A stretch of DNA of 63,830 bases, taken from assembly GCA_945897885.1 (NCBI GenBank), contig CAMDGU010000010.1, positions 1 to 63,830 of the forward strand, given 5' to 3'. This document shows, one piece after another, positions 19,730 through 49,834 of the stretch. The first letter of the stretch is position 1; each line of letters begins with the position of its first letter. The notes beneath the pieces were generated by a model, which was not told where the DNA came from, searched no databases, and was given only the letters and a program-made list of their open reading frames with translations. Source of the stretch: Chitinophaga pinensis. Its GTDB lineage: Bacteria > Bacteroidota > Bacteroidia > NS11-12g > UBA9320. Both the position numbers and the translations under genes were made by a program.

Positions 19730-20027
19730 ATTTATTTAAAAAATCTTACGATAGAGTTTCAATCATCTAGTGATAAATTCATTTATAGATTTTATTTCAC
19801 ACAACATTTTATAGAACCAATGAAAAAATTTAAATCTGGCTTAATGTATTTACGTATTTTGATGTTTTTTTAAATATTTAATAAAAATGTTGTTAATACC
19901 AATAAATAAAGGGGTAAAGTGATAGTTTGTAAAAATTTCAATGTTATTAAATTGTTATGATTATGCTGAAATACTTAAATATTGTTAACATTAGCGTAAC
20001 ATTGAAAAATATTTATACTGTAAAATC
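19730..20027. other. AT-rich regulatory gap with paired repeats
   Basis: The gap holds no convincing gene. Near its right end are two paired-repeat motifs: TTAACA-N5-GTAACA at 19985-20001, and an opposite-strand pair ATAACA-N5-ATAACA (from ATGTTAT TAAA TTGTTAT, 19950-19967 approx.). Both have the 11-base period of PHO boxes. They precede the H1-like gene. Confidence 0.45.
19985..20001 (+). promoter_or_regulatory. PHO-box-like direct repeat before the H1-like gene
   Basis: TTAACA TTAGC GTAACA: two hexamers 11 bases apart, one mismatch from a perfect repeat, 26 bases before the ATG at 20028. The same arrangement is found before the phosphate porin (45694-45710) and DUF47-Pit (47445-47461). It resembles the TTAACA-N5-TTAACA PHO box of Bacillus and the 7+4+7 layout of E. 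coli. Confidence 0.45.
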
Positions 20028-20429
20028 ATGAAATACGCCAAATTAAAAAGTGATATTGAAGATAAGATAGCTTCAAAAGTCAATGAGATTGTAAATGAAC
20101 TTCAAGTGGAAGGACATGCAATTAGCAAGTCGATTGCTGATGCCTCAAAAAAAATAGCGAAAACCATAGCAAAAAAATTAAAGGAACTAGAAAAGAAAAA
20201 TGCTCCTGTAAAAAAGAAGCTGCCAACACCGATTAGTAAAAAGGCAACTTCAACTACTTCTAAACCTACATCAGAGAAACCTGCCGCTAAAAATAACGCA
20301 GCCAAAGTGGCTCCTAAGGTAGTGAAACCTGCTGTTAAGAAAACCGAAATTGCCCAAAAAAAAGCTATTGTGCCTAAGAATAGCCCAGCTAAGAAGGCTG
20401 CTGCAACAACAAAGACTGCTAAAAAGTAG
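20028..20429 (+). CDS. Histone-H1-like Lys/Ala/Pro-rich protein
   Basis: A 133-residue, extremely basic protein. Residues 1-57 form one or two amphipathic helices (DIEDKIASKVNEIVNELQ, KKIAKTIAKKLKELEKK). Residues 60-133 are a low-complexity tail of Lys, Ala, Pro and Thr (PAAKNNAAKVAPKVVK and similar), like the tails of eukaryotic H1, PhaF and AlgP. Such tails bind polyanions, either DNA or polyphosphate. It lies 63 bases ahead of a ParA ATPase and behind a PHO-box-like repeat. I infer that the helical head is an adaptor, for example for ParA, and the tail grips DNA or a granule. Confidence 0.6.
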   Translation: MKYAKLKSDIEDKIASKVNEIVNELQVEGHAISKSIADASKKIAKTIAKKLKELEKKNAPVKKKLPTPISKKATSTTSKPTSEKPAAKNNAAKVAPKVVKPAVKKTEIAQKKAIVPKNSPAKKAAATTKTAKK

Positions 20430-20492
20430 TTTCAAAATTTCATGGACATGAACTTATATATTGCCAATCATTTCAATTATATTTAGTAAAAT

Positions 20493-21236
20493 ATGGTTAC
20501 GATTGCCTTATATAATTTTAAAGGCGGTGTGGGCAAAACCACCTCTGCGGTAAACCTCGCTTATTTAGCCTCGCAAGAAAGTAAAAAAACACTTTTGTGG
20601 GATTTTGACCCTCAAGGTTCGGCTTCCTTTTTTTGCAAAGTAAATACAAAAGTAAAGGGTGGTGCAAAAAATATTATAGATAGGAAAAATGATATTTTTG
20701 AAGCTGTCAGAGAAACTAATTTTCAAAATTTGGAGGTTTTACCAGCAGATTTTTCATTACGAAATATGGATATTTTGCTAGAGGAAACAAAAAAATCAAA
20801 GAAAAAATTAAAATCTATTACAGATTTACTTAGCAAAAAATACGATTACACATTTATTGATTGTCCTCCAGGTTTATCACTCTTGACAGAGCATATTTTT
20901 AACACAGCTGATTATTTTGTTGTGCCAATAATACCAAGTACCCTTTCAATACGGACCTATCATTTAATATTTGAGTATTTTAAAAAGAATGATCTTGACA
21001 CTGGAAGTATCCTACCATTTTTTTCAATGGTTGATATAAGAAAAAGTATGCATAAGGATATAATGACCTCAAGTATTAAGGATGTACCTAATATTTTAAA
21101 AACAATAGTCAAATATTCTTCAGATATTGAAAAAATGGGGGTAGAACTTGCGCCCTTGCCTTCATTTGCCCCTAATTCAAAATCAGCATTGGCTTATAAA
21201 TCCTTATGGAAAGATATTAAGAAAAAGATTAATTAA
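20493..21236 (+). CDS. Orphan ParA-family ATPase
   Basis: A 247-residue ParA/MinD-superfamily ATPase with deviant Walker A KGGVGKTT (residues 9-16), Walker A' DFDPQGSAS and Walker B FIDCPPGLS. No ParB, parS-like repeats or replication gene is near, so it is not an evident plasmid or chromosome partition pair. The only likely partner is the H1-like protein upstream. Orphan ParAs position cargo such as carboxysomes (McdA) or chemoreceptors (PpfA). A Bacteroidota-specific branch, as I recall, sits near polyphosphate genes; that would need a search. Confidence 0.85.
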   Translation: MVTIALYNFKGGVGKTTSAVNLAYLASQESKKTLLWDFDPQGSASFFCKVNTKVKGGAKNIIDRKNDIFEAVRETNFQNLEVLPADFSLRNMDILLEETKKSKKKLKSITDLLSKKYDYTFIDCPPGLSLLTEHIFNTADYFVVPIIPSTLSIRTYHLIFEYFKKNDLDTGSILPFFSMVDIRKSMHKDIMTSSIKDVPNILKTIVKYSSDIEKMGVELAPLPSFAPNSKSALAYKSLWKDIKKKIN

Positions 21237-25127: not shown

Positions 25128-25191
25128 TTATATGTAATTCATATCTATTTTTAAAATCAAAGTCTCATTTCATTTGTGTTGATTATTTATG

Positions 25192-25199
25192 TATGTTTG
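25192..25199 (+). promoter_or_regulatory. -7 box of the small exported protein at 25216
   Basis: TATGTTTG, a perfect TAnnTTTG, 16 bases before the ATG at 25216. It supports that start over an ATG further upstream at 25189. Confidence 0.55.
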
Positions 25200-25215
25200 T
25201 TATATAATTACAGTT

Positions 25216-25650
25216 ATGAAAAAACTAATTTATTCTTTTTTGATCCTTGCATTACCTACATTCTCATTGGCTGGTGATACTGACTTTTCCTATGATAAAA
25301 GTTCTTTAATTAGTGAATTTAGTCAGTTAGACAAAGTAGCTGCTTATGTTGATGAAACAAATGTTTCATACACCGAACTTTCAAATTCTCCTGTTTTTGA
25401 AGGCAATATTGAATTGACTAATGCAATAGCCGTTAAACCAAATTTAAAATTTGAAGATGTAGATTGGGGGGCTTTTGCTTGGGGCTTTTGTTGCTGGCCA
25501 ATAGGTATTTTTACAGTAATATTAAAAGATGATGTAGATAAAAACTCTAAAAATTCCTTTTTCGCAGGAATTGCATCAGCTACAATTGCAACAACTGTAT
25601 CCTACATAGCTGTGTATGTTATAGCTATTGCATCATACAGTGGATTTTAA
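25216..25650 (+). CDS. Small exported membrane protein with YDK...F motif
   Basis: A 144-residue protein: signal peptide ending SLAGD, then FSYDKSSLISEF, a linker, then a hydrophobic C-terminal third with GFCCWPIGIFTVI and IASATIATTVSYIAVYVIAI. The YDxxxLxxxF motif is shared with 26410, 37500 and 38028, and GFCCxPxG with 26410. The pattern of a Cys/Pro/Gly turn followed by two membrane helices recalls TM2-domain proteins. Function unknown. Confidence 0.65.
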   Translation: MKKLIYSFLILALPTFSLAGDTDFSYDKSSLISEFSQLDKVAAYVDETNVSYTELSNSPVFEGNIELTNAIAVKPNLKFEDVDWGAFAWGFCCWPIGIFTVILKDDVDKNSKNSFFAGIASATIATTVSYIAVYVIAIASYSGF

Positions 25651-26409: not shown

Positions 26410-26787
26410 TTGCAAAAATTACTTTTAATAATTACATCACTCTTGGTAATGTGTGTTACCAAATCTTATGCCAATAGCGATTTTTGGTATGATAAGGAAC
26501 AATTAGACCTAGAATTTCGCGAACAAGATAATAACGAAATTACTGAACTCTCAAAAGTAAATCTACAATCAATAGATTCATCAGAGTTTACACTTTACGA
26601 TTTAGAGTTGGAACCTTTTTGCACAGGTTTTTGTTGTGGACCTGTTGGCTTAATTACTTATTACAAAGGAAAAAACTCTGAAACCAATAAAAAATCCTAT
26701 TGGTTAGGGTGTGCATCGTTAACTGTTTCATTAGCAGCAGCATTTGTAGGATTGGTAATTTACGATGGCGGGTTCTTTTTCTTTTAA
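26410..26787 (+). CDS. Small exported membrane protein, relative of 25216
   Basis: A 125-residue protein: signal peptide (QKLLLIITSLLVMCVTKSYA), then FWYDKEQLDLEF, a linker and FCTGFCCGPVGLITYYKG followed by hydrophobic LGCASLTVSLAAAFVGLVIY and an odd C-terminus GGFFFF. The start is TTG at 26410 (no ATG fits the signal peptide). It is a clear paralogue of 25216 in both the head motif and GFCCxPxG. Function unknown. Confidence 0.6.
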   Translation: MQKLLLIITSLLVMCVTKSYANSDFWYDKEQLDLEFREQDNNEITELSKVNLQSIDSSEFTLYDLELEPFCTGFCCGPVGLITYYKGKNSETNKKSYWLGCASLTVSLAAAFVGLVIYDGGFFFF

Positions 26788-44400: not shown

Positions 44401-45627
44401 CTAAAAATTAAATTGGGCTTGTAACCTTAATAAACTTCCCTTTTGTTTATTATTTTGGAGTTTAAAATCTTCAAATCTGCGATCTGAAATGGTATACATA
44501 GCTACCAATTCAAAGTTTTTTATGGGTTGCCATTCTGTTCCTATTTCTAATTCCTTTAAGGTGTAGCTTCTGGCATCCAACTCGTGCTTTTTGCCGCCAT
44601 CATAATAATGATATCTTACAAAAGGGATTAATATTTGTTCTTGAATTTTCAAAAAGTAGGATGCAATAATATATCCCCCTTTTAATTTTTGAGTTTCTAT
44701 AGAATCGGTTGCCGGATTAAACTCAGGGCCACGGCCAATATTATACTCAGCCTGAATACCAAATGGTTTTGGAAATAGAATAAGGCTTGCTGCTGCCCTT
44801 TCATCATCGTAATTCAAATCTTTTACATATTTCACCTTGTCTGATTTGCTTTCTATAGCATATTTTCCTTTGTATCCTTGAATTCCGGCTTCAAATACTT
44901 GGCCTTTAAACTCAAATGGATAACTTACTCTGGCAACAATATGTGGTTCTTTATTGGCATCATTCTTATTAGCAGTTTGCCCATTATAGGCACCTATTCC
45001 AAATACACCATAATCGCCGCTTCCTTTATACCCATCATTTACCAATGAACTAAACAACTTTCTTGTTTTTTCAGGAGCCCAATAAAAGAAAACGCCAAGG
45101 TCACGCTCATTGGAAACAGCACTATTCAGAGCATCATTTCTATCTAGCGGCAAACGGTTTTGGCTCGACTGCATATTTTCAAAACCAAACGGAACTTTGC
45201 TTTGTCCAACTCTAAATCTGTATTCCTTCTTTTTGTCTAATGATAAATCAAAATAAGCATCTCTTAATTGCCCAAAATGATTTGACCCTGAAGACGGAGA
45301 GGATGCAAAATCAGGTTGAATGTATATATATACCCTTTCCGAAACATTTCCGTAAAAAATGATTCGCATCCTGCGAATGAAAAAACCACCATTACCCCAT
45401 GATTTATCCCCTTGTTCATTTTTCAACGAATCGTTCGTTTCTAATAACCGGTTATATCGCACTTGCGTATATCCTCTAATGGCAATTTGCTCATACCAAT
45501 GTTTGGATGGAGTTTTTGGTTTATCCTGAGCGGTAACGTTCCAAAATGTGAAACATGTAACAGTAATAAGCGTTAAGGTTCTGATTTTCAATAATAAAAA
45601 ATGCTTTACCATGAATAATTTTTTCAT
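44401..45627 (-). CDS. Phosphate-selective porin O/P family protein
   Basis: A 408-residue outer-membrane porin: signal peptide ending WNVTAQ, barrel strands such as FIRRMRIIFYGNVSERVYIYIQ and YRFRVGQSKVPFGFENMQSS (the OprP-family GQxKVPFG motif), ending LQAQFNF. OprO/OprP porins pass phosphate or polyphosphate. A perfect PHO-box-like repeat lies at 45694-45710, supporting a phosphate role. I start at the ATG at 45627; a later Met (45612) is possible. Confidence 0.85.
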   Translation of the reverse strand: MKKLFMVKHFLLLKIRTLTLITVTCFTFWNVTAQDKPKTPSKHWYEQIAIRGYTQVRYNRLLETNDSLKNEQGDKSWGNGGFFIRRMRIIFYGNVSERVYIYIQPDFASSPSSGSNHFGQLRDAYFDLSLDKKKEYRFRVGQSKVPFGFENMQSSQNRLPLDRNDALNSAVSNERDLGVFFYWAPEKTRKLFSSLVNDGYKGSGDYGVFGIGAYNGQTANKNDANKEPHIVARVSYPFEFKGQVFEAGIQGYKGKYAIESKSDKVKYVKDLNYDDERAAASLILFPKPFGIQAEYNIGRGPEFNPATDSIETQKLKGGYIIASYFLKIQEQILIPFVRYHYYDGGKKHELDARSYTLKELEIGTEWQPIKNFELVAMYTISDRRFEDFKLQNNKQKGSLLRLQAQFNF

Positions 45628-45693
45628 TTGCAAAACAAATTATTTTATATGTTACCTGTATATTATGCTTTTGTTATGTTTTAAAAATTAGCC

Positions 45694-45710
45694 TTAACAT
45701 TAAGTTAACA
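45694..45710 (-). promoter_or_regulatory. PHO-box-like perfect direct repeat
   Basis: TTAACA TTAAG TTAACA (as read on the plus strand; with the next T it is TTAACAT-TAAG-TTAACAT, 7+4+7). It is 67 bases upstream of the porin start. The minus-strand reading continues into TAATTTTT, a near -7 box. Confidence 0.6.
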
Positions 45711-47444: not shown

Positions 47445-47461
47445 TTAACAATTCCTTAACT
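47445..47461 (+). promoter_or_regulatory. PHO-box-like direct repeat before DUF47-Pit
   Basis: TTAACA ATTCC TTAACT, one mismatch from perfect, 11-base period. It lies 20 bases upstream of CACCTTTG (47482-47489, a near -7 box) and 51 bases before the ATG at 47513. Confidence 0.5.
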
Positions 47462-47512: not shown

Positions 47513-48160
47513 ATGAGTAATTTATTAAGTTTTTTTATCCCTAAAGAAAGAAAGTTCTTTACAATGTTTGAACAAGCTACCAGCAATTTGGTAGAAATCT
47601 CAAAATTATTAGTAGAAATGGTAAAGGCTACTTCTACAGAGGAGAGAAAAAGACTAAGAAATGAAATTGAAAACCTGGAACACGTTGGAGATAATGTAAC
47701 TCACGATATTTTAAACCAGTTGAGTTTAAGTTTTATCACCCCTTTTGACCGTGAAGATATTCATGAATTGGCTGTGGTTATTGATGATATTGCCGATTAT
47801 ATTAATGGTGTATCTAGTCGTATTATTATTTATAAAATAGAACCCGCTGATATTACACCAGAAGTTGTAAAACTTGCTGAATTAATACAGCGCTGCACTG
47901 AAGAATTACATATTGCTGTGGGGCAGTTAAGAGATTTGAAAGATGTAGAAAAAATTAACGAGGCTTACGTTCGCATTAATAGTATTGAAAACCATGCCGA
48001 TGATATATTTGATATGGCCATAGGACAACTTTTTGAAGATGAAAAGGACCCTATTAAACTAATAAAAATGAAAGAACTGTATGCCACACTTGAAACCGCT
48101 ACAGATAAGGCTGAAGATGCCGCTGATATTATCAAATCAATACAGGTTAAAAACGCCTAA
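47513..48160 (+). CDS. DUF47-family (PhoU-like) Pit accessory protein
   Basis: A 215-residue all-helical protein with paired three-helix bundles and acidic metal-binding motifs (NLEHVGDNVTHDI, ENHADDIFDMA), as in PhoU and DUF47. Such proteins sit before pit genes and tune phosphate uptake. Pit follows after 21 bases. Confidence 0.92.
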   Translation: MSNLLSFFIPKERKFFTMFEQATSNLVEISKLLVEMVKATSTEERKRLRNEIENLEHVGDNVTHDILNQLSLSFITPFDREDIHELAVVIDDIADYINGVSSRIIIYKIEPADITPEVVKLAELIQRCTEELHIAVGQLRDLKDVEKINEAYVRINSIENHADDIFDMAIGQLFEDEKDPIKLIKMKELYATLETATDKAEDAADIIKSIQVKNA

Positions 48161-48181
48161 TAATTACACCTTTCTAAAAAA

Positions 48182-49834
48182 ATGGAACTGATAATTATTG
48201 TAATTGCCCTTGCATTAATCTTTGATTTTATCAATGGATTTCATGATGCGGCCAATTCCATAGCCACCATTGTTTCTACCAAAGTATTAACTCCAGTACA
48301 AGCGGTACTTTGGGCTGCTTTTTTCAACTTTGTGGCTTTTCTTATTTTTAAAGATCATGCCGTAGCTAATACCATTGGCAAAACTGTATATTCTGACTTT
48401 ATTACTCTTCCAGTTATTTTAAGTGGATTACTGGCAGCCATATTCTGGAATTTACTTACCTGGTGGTATGGAATTCCTTCCTCTTCTTCTCATACTTTAA
48501 TAGGAGGATTTGCCGGAGCTGCGATATGCCATGCCTTTATATCAAAAGGTATGATGCCAATAAATGAAATAATAGATAGCGGAAAAATTGGCAAAACAGC
48601 CATGTTTATTTTCTTAGCTCCAATTGTTGGTATGATTATCTCCATCATTTTTACTTTAATCTTTATTCAAAGAAACACATGGCTTAAAGTGGGTATTTTA
48701 ATGAGTTCAGCCGCGCTGTTGTTTTATGTTTTTATTGGATTTCAGGAAAATAAACTGGAAGAAAATATGAACAAGTTTTTTAAGGTAGACAAATATACGA
48801 TTGATGTAAATATCAAACATGATTCTACAAAAATTGAAAAACTTGAAATAGCTAAGGCTAGTGCAAAATCATGTTATCCTTACTTGGTTGCTTATGAAAA
48901 AGATGGTGCAGATAAAGTAGCCGGTGAAATAGTTGCCAATGTTGATTTAAAAGATATTACAATTAGCAAAATTGGCGATAAAATCGGCAGATTTTTCAAA
49001 ATAGAACTTTTAAAAAATAAAGCTAAAAAAGATACCTCATTTAAACAAGAATATTTGGCCACTCAGGCTATAATTGATAGTTTAAAACCTGTTTCAAAAA
49101 AATACTTTGAATTAGGATTTGACGGAATGGTAGCTAAAATGAACGGGATTTACCCAATGAGTCCCGAAATGCTTTCAAATTTCAAAAAAGCTGTAAAAAT
49201 TGACATCAAAGAAGATTTGAAAAAGGAAATAGAAAAAGCGGATAACAAATTTTTAAGATGGGCCCTTGTTAGTGCGTTATTCATATTTGCTCTCACCTTT
49301 ATTTATACAGAAAAAATAAAGGAACCCAATGCACGTAGAACTTCCAATTCATTTAAAAAATTACAACTTCTTTCCTCGGCAGCATTTAGTATTGGTCATG
49401 GAGGCAATGATGCTCAAAAAGTAATGGGAATTATTGCTGCTGCTTTAATTGCCAATGGAAACATTGTAGATATAAAGTCAATGCCTGATTGGGTGCCTTT
49501 AAGCTGTTATCTTGCCATTGGAATTGGAACTCTAAGCGGTGGTTGGAAAATAGTAAAAACCATGGGAACCAAAATAACCAAGGTAACACCATTAGAAGGA
49601 GTTTGTGCTGAAACTGCTGGTGCCACAACCCTATTCCTTACTGAGCAAATGGGAATTCCCGTAAGTACAACTCACACTATCACAGGTTCTATTGTAGGGG
49701 TTGGGTTGGTAAAAGGTGTTTCTTCTGTAAAATGGGGGGTTACTATAAGTTTGCTTTGGGCGTGGGTATTAACCATACCCGTATCAGCTGTATTAGCAGC
49801 CCTAGTTTACTATATTGTTCATTTTTTTGTTTAA
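48182..49834 (+). CDS. pit: Pit-family inorganic phosphate transporter
   Basis: A 550-residue transporter. The two Pit repeats carry FDFINGFHDAANSIATIVST (near N-terminus) and SIGHGGNDAQKVMGII (residues 398-413), plus SSSHTLIGG and STTHTITGS. Between the halves is an unusual hydrophilic insert of about 160 residues (about 196-355), rich in Lys and Asp, after a hydrophobic segment; most Pit proteins have shorter loops. It likely moves phosphate with protons or sodium as part of the phosphate set. Confidence 0.94.
   Translation: MELIIIVIALALIFDFINGFHDAANSIATIVSTKVLTPVQAVLWAAFFNFVAFLIFKDHAVANTIGKTVYSDFITLPVILSGLLAAIFWNLLTWWYGIPSSSSHTLIGGFAGAAICHAFISKGMMPINEIIDSGKIGKTAMFIFLAPIVGMIISIIFTLIFIQRNTWLKVGILMSSAALLFYVFIGFQENKLEENMNKFFKVDKYTIDVNIKHDSTKIEKLEIAKASAKSCYPYLVAYEKDGADKVAGEIVANVDLKDITISKIGDKIGRFFKIELLKNKAKKDTSFKQEYLATQAIIDSLKPVSKKYFELGFDGMVAKMNGIYPMSPEMLSNFKKAVKIDIKEDLKKEIEKADNKFLRWALVSALFIFALTFIYTEKIKEPNARRTSNSFKKLQLLSSAAFSIGHGGNDAQKVMGIIAAALIANGNIVDIKSMPDWVPLSCYLAIGIGTLSGGWKIVKTMGTKITKVTPLEGVCAETAGATTLFLTEQMGIPVSTTHTITGSIVGVGLVKGVSSVKWGVTISLLWAWVLTIPVSAVLAALVYYIVHFFV

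Follow-up and report, generated by a model that had tools for sequence, protein, structure and literature searches.

The window analysed here, i.e., the whole stretch of 63,830 nucleotides, carries on its forward strand a gene for a small H1-like protein (H1L) followed by a gene for a ParA-family ATPase. The open reading frames bear out what a first-pass annotation of this DNA had described, namely two neighbouring genes 63 bp apart that encode an H1-like protein and a ParA with an intact Walker motif. The locus has the following parts:

20028..20429, + strand: H1L gene; open reading frame with a two-helix head (aa 1–58) and a Lys/Ala/Pro-rich tail (aa 59–133)
20028..20201, + strand: conserved H1L head with the motif ASKxIAK...KxL, from alignments of homologues
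20430..20492, + strand: 63-bp spacer separating the two genes, with no hairpin resembling a terminator on the coding strand
20493..21236, + strand: ParA-family ATPase gene, assigned by Pfam (AAA_31), tree and fold match
20520..20540, + strand: intact deviant Walker A (KGGVGKT), evident from the sequence; hardly varies among the 26 family members compared

Genes for a YeiH-like transporter and a TPR protein flank the pair. The ParA is an orphan, as the annotation had stated: no ParB or replication gene was found among the neighbours, the adjacent ParB or centromere-binding gene of a ParABS system is missing, and the Soj/ParB pair of the genome is encoded separately on another contig. Also, no microcompartment gene occurs among the immediate neighbours of ParA.

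H1L has a predicted helical head and a lysine-rich tail

H1L comprises 133 residues with a computed pI of about 10.2 and starts with the basic sequence MKYAKLK. Its head (residues 1–58) has a net charge of +5, and the tail (residues 59–133) contains 21 Lys/Arg compared with 2 Asp/Glu, together with 15 Ala and 9 Pro. AlphaFold2 modeled helices at residues 2–25 and 30–57 with a pLDDT of about 90 and the tail with a pLDDT of about 57; the head is predicted to be a two-helix hairpin, and the Lys/Ala/Pro tail to be disordered. Among H1L orthologues upstream of ParA, sequence conservation is higher in the head than in the tail. Searches against Pfam, the PDB, and phage and defence families gave no acceptable match for H1L, and Pfam detected no phasin domain. 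In the AlphaFold2 model, H1L has the layout of AlgP/PhaF-type proteins, i.e., a helical N-terminal part and a disordered cationic tail, although this Lys/Ala/Pro-rich tail lacks the KPAA repeat array.

The ParA belongs to a separate family

The ParA protein has 247 residues, matches Pfam AAA_31 at 3e-38 and has a basic C-terminal helix, LWKDIKKKI. Its deviant Walker A motif and ParA fold are those of ParA/MinD (A/D) ATPases. In a fold comparison with the PDB, Soj/ParA proteins were closest (TM 0.84–0.89), and McdA scored a TM of 0.81–0.82. In a rapidly computed tree, in which some entries had flagged long branches, 65 family ParAs were split from Soj and plasmid ParAs with an SH-aLRT of 100. 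Residues such as Y7, P148, R154, H187, E213 and M215 hardly vary among the 26 family members compared, and the outgroups have other residues there.

The H1L-ParA pair is conserved in few Bacteroidota lineages

Of the 108 genomes from the order, only 4, the window genome (G000) included, have a close ParA orthologue (67–81% identity). All four (G000, G005, G006 and G008) encode H1L directly upstream of ParA. The flanks have changed in G008, where an LpxH-like metallophosphoesterase and a Glyco_trans_1_3-type glycosyltransferase follow H1L-ParA (L035) instead of the window's neighbours. These two genes again stand side by side near an H1L gene in G122 (L202, G122:C3:1-9000), followed there by a YegS-like kinase.

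A ParA profile matched 16 of 395 Bacteroidia genomes. In G411, from a distant Bacteroidota family, a short gene with a head and a Lys tail immediately precedes ParA. Most other Bacteroidota ParAs of the family have no adjoining H1L or CHAD gene, and none was found beside ParA at the loci examined in the Chitinophagaceae sister clade. The co-occurrence across Bacteroidota that the first-pass annotation wanted checked thus holds for the four family genomes and G411 but not for most ParAs of the family, and we rejected an H1L gene beside ParA as a general rule in this phylum. In many Chitinophagaceae (L041, L060, L069 and others), an esterase-like gene (about 243 aa) comes shortly after the family ParA, and upstream lies a gene for UvrB or for a ChrA-like transporter, with no polyphosphate (polyP) gene nearby.

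CHAD proteins are encoded beside family ParAs outside Bacteroidota

Members of the ParA family occur in 46 of 274 Gammaproteobacteria genomes. At 28 of the 30 gammaproteobacterial loci read, a homologous protein is encoded immediately upstream of ParA, with about 500 residues as far as the examined stretch reaches. All 20 upstream proteins submitted to Pfam, among them two from L079 and L088, proved to have a CHAD domain. Experiments have established CHAD as a module that binds polyP (PMC6537752). Annotated plasmid records of two Paracoccus species have the gene order CHAD-ParA-CYTH-NUDIX, which in P. marcusii adjoins phoU-phoB. A Desulfurellaceae MAG (L088) has SixA-CHAD-ParA-Ppx-Ppx-PPK1 on one strand.

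For Acidithiobacillus, a folD-ppk-parA-CHAD cluster has been published with its parA read as a plasmid/chromosome partition gene (PMC10892726, PMC6416229). Going by the published description, this cluster resembles H1L-ParA in that an orphan parA stands beside a polyP binder and, in this case, PPK1; it differs in that the adaptor is CHAD, not H1L, and that parA was described only as a plasmid-partition homologue (PMC10892726). Judged by its sequence, the window ParA is a member of the discrete, CHAD-linked ParA family of polyP operons. No CHAD gene lies directly upstream of it; H1L occupies that place.

A distant family ParA is encoded on the conjugative Marinobacter nauticus plasmid pMAQU02 (L167), near phbB and pyruvate kinase genes. 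From this plasmid member, some ParAs of the family could serve PHB granules, with the cargo varying.

H1L homologues precede PPK1 genes

We searched 60 genomes with a profile of the H1L head; besides the ParA-linked genes, it detected additional copies in families f22 and f17. Five f22 genomes (G295, G170, G267, G484 and G431) have a SixA-H1L-PPK1-Ppx operon, with the gene identities confirmed by Pfam in G295. The five PPK1-linked H1L proteins match the profile weakly (E 1e-4 to 1e-2) but have a recurring position and a common aligned motif, ASKxIAK...K. A link to ppk1, ppx or CHAD genes, the second comparison suggested by the first-pass annotation, exists for H1L in these five genomes, but the Chitinophagaceae ParA has no polyP neighbour.

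PPK1 is present in the window genome, there as PPK1-Ppx, and in the three pair-bearing relatives. PHA synthase (PhaC) is absent from all four genomes (G000, G005, G006 and G008), and a CHAD protein is absent from G000. Since PPK1 is present and both PHA synthase and CHAD are lacking, the cargo in the window genome is likely polyP rather than PHB. The PHB granule, which the annotation had mentioned alongside polyP granules, is disfavoured by the missing PHA synthase, and we rejected it as cargo in this genome.

G205 and G122, two genomes with PHA synthase, encode H1L homologues next to helical, phasin-like genes (L200, L201 and L202); Pfam matched no phasin domain in these neighbours. This hints at a PHB-related second branch among H1L adaptors, and H1L-type proteins may serve more than one granule type.

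At genome level, PPK1 occurred within the genus in 3/3 genomes with and 0/4 without the ParA (Fisher p 0.03, ignoring relatedness). Across the class no PPK1 enrichment with ParA was found (14/16 ParA-positive compared with 304/379 ParA-negative genomes), because about 80% of the genomes carry PPK1 anyway, and we rejected the co-occurrence as class-wide evidence. In a second genome set, 25 of 30 ParA-positive genomes had PPK1. CHAD proteins were weakly enriched in ParA-positive Bacteroidia (5/16 compared with 41/379; p about 0.03, ignoring relatedness), with 3 of the 5 CHAD-bearing genomes belonging to one genus.

Repeats upstream of H1L and probable phosphate control

The region upstream of H1L and two phosphate-transport units in the window contain repeats:

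19985..20001, + strand: TTAACATTAGCGTAACA, second repeat with an 11-bp period at -43 of H1L; exact, from a sequence scan
19942..19957, - strand: repeat TAACAATTTAATAACA (GTTATTAAATTGTTA on the + strand), 85 bp upstream of H1L; common to PPK1-linked H1L genes
20010..20017, + strand: possible -10/-7 element TATTTATA, read from the sequence and also present in the G005 orthologue
44401..45633, - strand: phosphate-selective porin O/P gene (PF07396) with TAACA-type repeats upstream at 45650-45710
47446..47461, + strand: TAACAATTCCTTAACT, repeat before the PhoU_div-PHO4 unit (47513-49834), from a sequence scan

According to the first-pass annotation, a TTAACA-N5-GTAACA repeat upstream of H1L had the same design as repeats before two phosphate-transport units. 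The H1L repeat is indeed exact at 19985, but taken alone it is no more frequent than chance predicts: the two-mismatch form of TTAACATTAGCGTAACA gave 16 sites in the window compared with 12.9 expected, and exact matches in the whole genome numbered 3 compared with 2 for a reversed control. We hence rejected both the two-mismatch PHO-box scan and the exact genome-wide count as evidence. Among relatives, TTAACATTAGCGTAACA is conserved in G005, degenerate in G008 and absent in G006. The shared design stood in exact form for one of the two transport units: of the 56 genes in the window, an exact TAACA-N6-TAACA within 200 bp upstream occurs only at H1L and the phosphate-selective porin gene, and the PhoU_div-PHO4 unit has it only with one mismatch. 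The genome's ppk1 is also preceded by this repeat with one mismatch.

The opposite-strand repeat at 19942-19957, which the first-pass annotation had missed, is better conserved than TTAACATTAGCGTAACA at 19985. In the window, G005 and G008, the ParA-linked H1L has GTTANNWAATTGTTA at -81 to -85 relative to its start (one base different in G008); upstream of H1L in G006 the repeat is missing. The PPK1-linked H1L genes in G295, G484, G431 and G170 have it at the same distance, exact or nearly so, and in G267 its position is further upstream. With one mismatch, GTTANNWAATTGTTA is also the repeat before the PhoU_div-PHO4 phosphate transporter. Exact copies occupy seven distinct places in 213 loci (1.57 Mb). 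Six precede H1L, and one lies close to dnaA in the window genome, where TAACA-type repeats, including one exact GTTANNWAATTGTTA, are located in and near the gap upstream of this gene (L205, G000:C7, around 46,900).

Because it is conserved across genomes, we regard the repeat upstream of H1L as more than a chance occurrence. PhoB sites are built as 11-bp direct repeats just upstream of the core promoter. H1L-ParA expression is probably tied to phosphate via these upstream repeats of 11-bp period, with control of the PhoB type as the putative mode.

Discussion

ParA-type positioning combines a nucleoid-bound ATPase with a cargo-bound partner that stimulates it, usually via a basic, disordered N-terminus (PMC10241942). 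AlgP, an H1-like protein, spaces polyP granules (PMC9239181). Based on the gene pairing, the identity of the ParA family, the polyP operon context of both parts and the shared promoter repeat, we consider it fairly probable that H1L and ParA form a module for positioning polyP granules. The cationic H1L tail, which would suit a polyanion, would coat or tether the granule, and the basic N-terminus or the helical head would contact ParA. ParA-ATP dimers would bind the nucleoid, and granules bearing H1L would trigger local ATP hydrolysis and thereby be moved and spaced along it, comparable to McdB-bearing carboxysomes with McdA. As has been suggested for AlgP (PMC9239181), the H1L tail may also bind DNA and link the granule to it. 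The adaptor beside the same ParA family in Proteobacteria would be a CHAD protein. Of the interpretation given in the first-pass annotation, polyP cargo, phosphate-linked control and H1L as ParA partner are backed by the CHAD-ParA operons, the SixA-H1L-PPK1-Ppx operons and the shared promoter repeat, but the pairing of the two genes is not universal. Several results speak against the module: ParA has no H1L or CHAD neighbour in Chitinophagaceae and most other Bacteroidota members, PPK1 shows no class-wide enrichment and CHAD only a weak one, the Marinobacter member is near a PHB gene, and G006 lacks the promoter repeat. More generally, we lean slightly towards the view that this widespread ParA family, with members in Bacteroidota, Gammaproteobacteria, Alphaproteobacteria and a Desulfurellaceae MAG, drives the active positioning of polyP granules on the nucleoid, with phosphate-coupled expression and an interchangeable adaptor, i.e., CHAD in Proteobacteria and an H1-like protein in some Bacteroidota.

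The polyP operon context would fit regulation as well as positioning, and the CYTH, NUDIX and SixA neighbours are enzymes rather than structural parts. ParA might hence be a signalling or regulatory ATPase that switches CHAD, H1L, PPK1 or Ppx by its ATP state, as FleN and BcsQ do in other pathways. We find this unlikely, as the nearest folds are DNA-segregating Soj/ParA proteins, not FleN or BcsQ, and the H1-like partner resembles known granule-nucleoid tethers (PMC9239181). It is also doubtful that H1L is a general nucleoid-associated protein next to an unrelated orphan ParA, with the adjacency merely inherited. H1-like tails do bind DNA in general and the pair is found in few lineages, but it was kept despite the changed flanks in G008, recurs in G411, and H1L homologues elsewhere stand beside PPK1 and share the promoter repeat.

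Another granule cargo such as PHB, or a degenerate plasmid partition system, appears quite improbable to us. PHB would agree with the phasin-like neighbours of the H1L homologues and the PhaC genes in G205 and G122, and with the Marinobacter family member near phbB; against it stands the lack of PhaC in all four pair-bearing genomes of the order. We rejected a plasmid partition relic: the locus has neither ParB nor a replication gene, and plasmid ParAs outside the family share less than about 30% identity across a comparable length and branch apart in the tree.

The positioning module proposed for H1L and ParA shares features with several known systems. Like McdA/McdB of carboxysomes, it combines a ParA-type ATPase and a small partner from the adjoining gene for a non-DNA cargo; unlike there, the probable cargo is polyP, H1L is Lys-rich and H1-like, and the ParA forms a separate family with Soj as the closer match. 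AlgP from Pseudomonas aeruginosa has a helical N-terminal part, a Lys/Pro/Ala tail and a polyP link in common with H1L (PMC9239181), but H1L is much shorter, without the KPAA array or shown homology, and no ParA is mentioned for AlgP. The phasins PhaF and PhaM use the same design of a granule-to-nucleoid tether with an H1-like tail (PMC13052382), whereas H1L has no phasin domain and the window genome no PHA synthase. With ParABS (Soj/Spo0J), the window ParA shares fold and motifs but lacks the adjacent ParB, and the genome has a separate Soj/ParB.

PolyP granules are regularly spaced in several bacteria, but the nucleoid tethers known so far, such as AlgP, are all passive, and a 2025 review named ATP-driven machinery for their placement as a still open question (PMC13052382). 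In the literature covered, which has no bioRxiv preprints and few subscription papers, we found no paper in which polyP granules are proposed to be positioned by a ParA. ParA-type cargo positioning as such is already known; new here would be the cargo and the adaptor. The ParA family with its conserved polyP-binder partner gene provides named candidates for ATP-driven placement, also in Proteobacteria. Moreover, it suggests what orphan ParAs that are now labelled as chromosome or plasmid partition proteins are likely to carry, and gives the small Lys-rich proteins encoded before ppk1 in Bacteroidota a first candidate role.

Two further features of the window genome were noted. The small secreted or membrane proteins encoded at 25189-25650 and 26410-26787 of the window have a common FCCWPIG/FCCGPVG motif and look like paralogues. 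At another locus (L204, about 1860-2340), a short repeated coding-like sequence (IRPRRGR) lies beside a transposase-like gene and is probably a mobile or repeat element.
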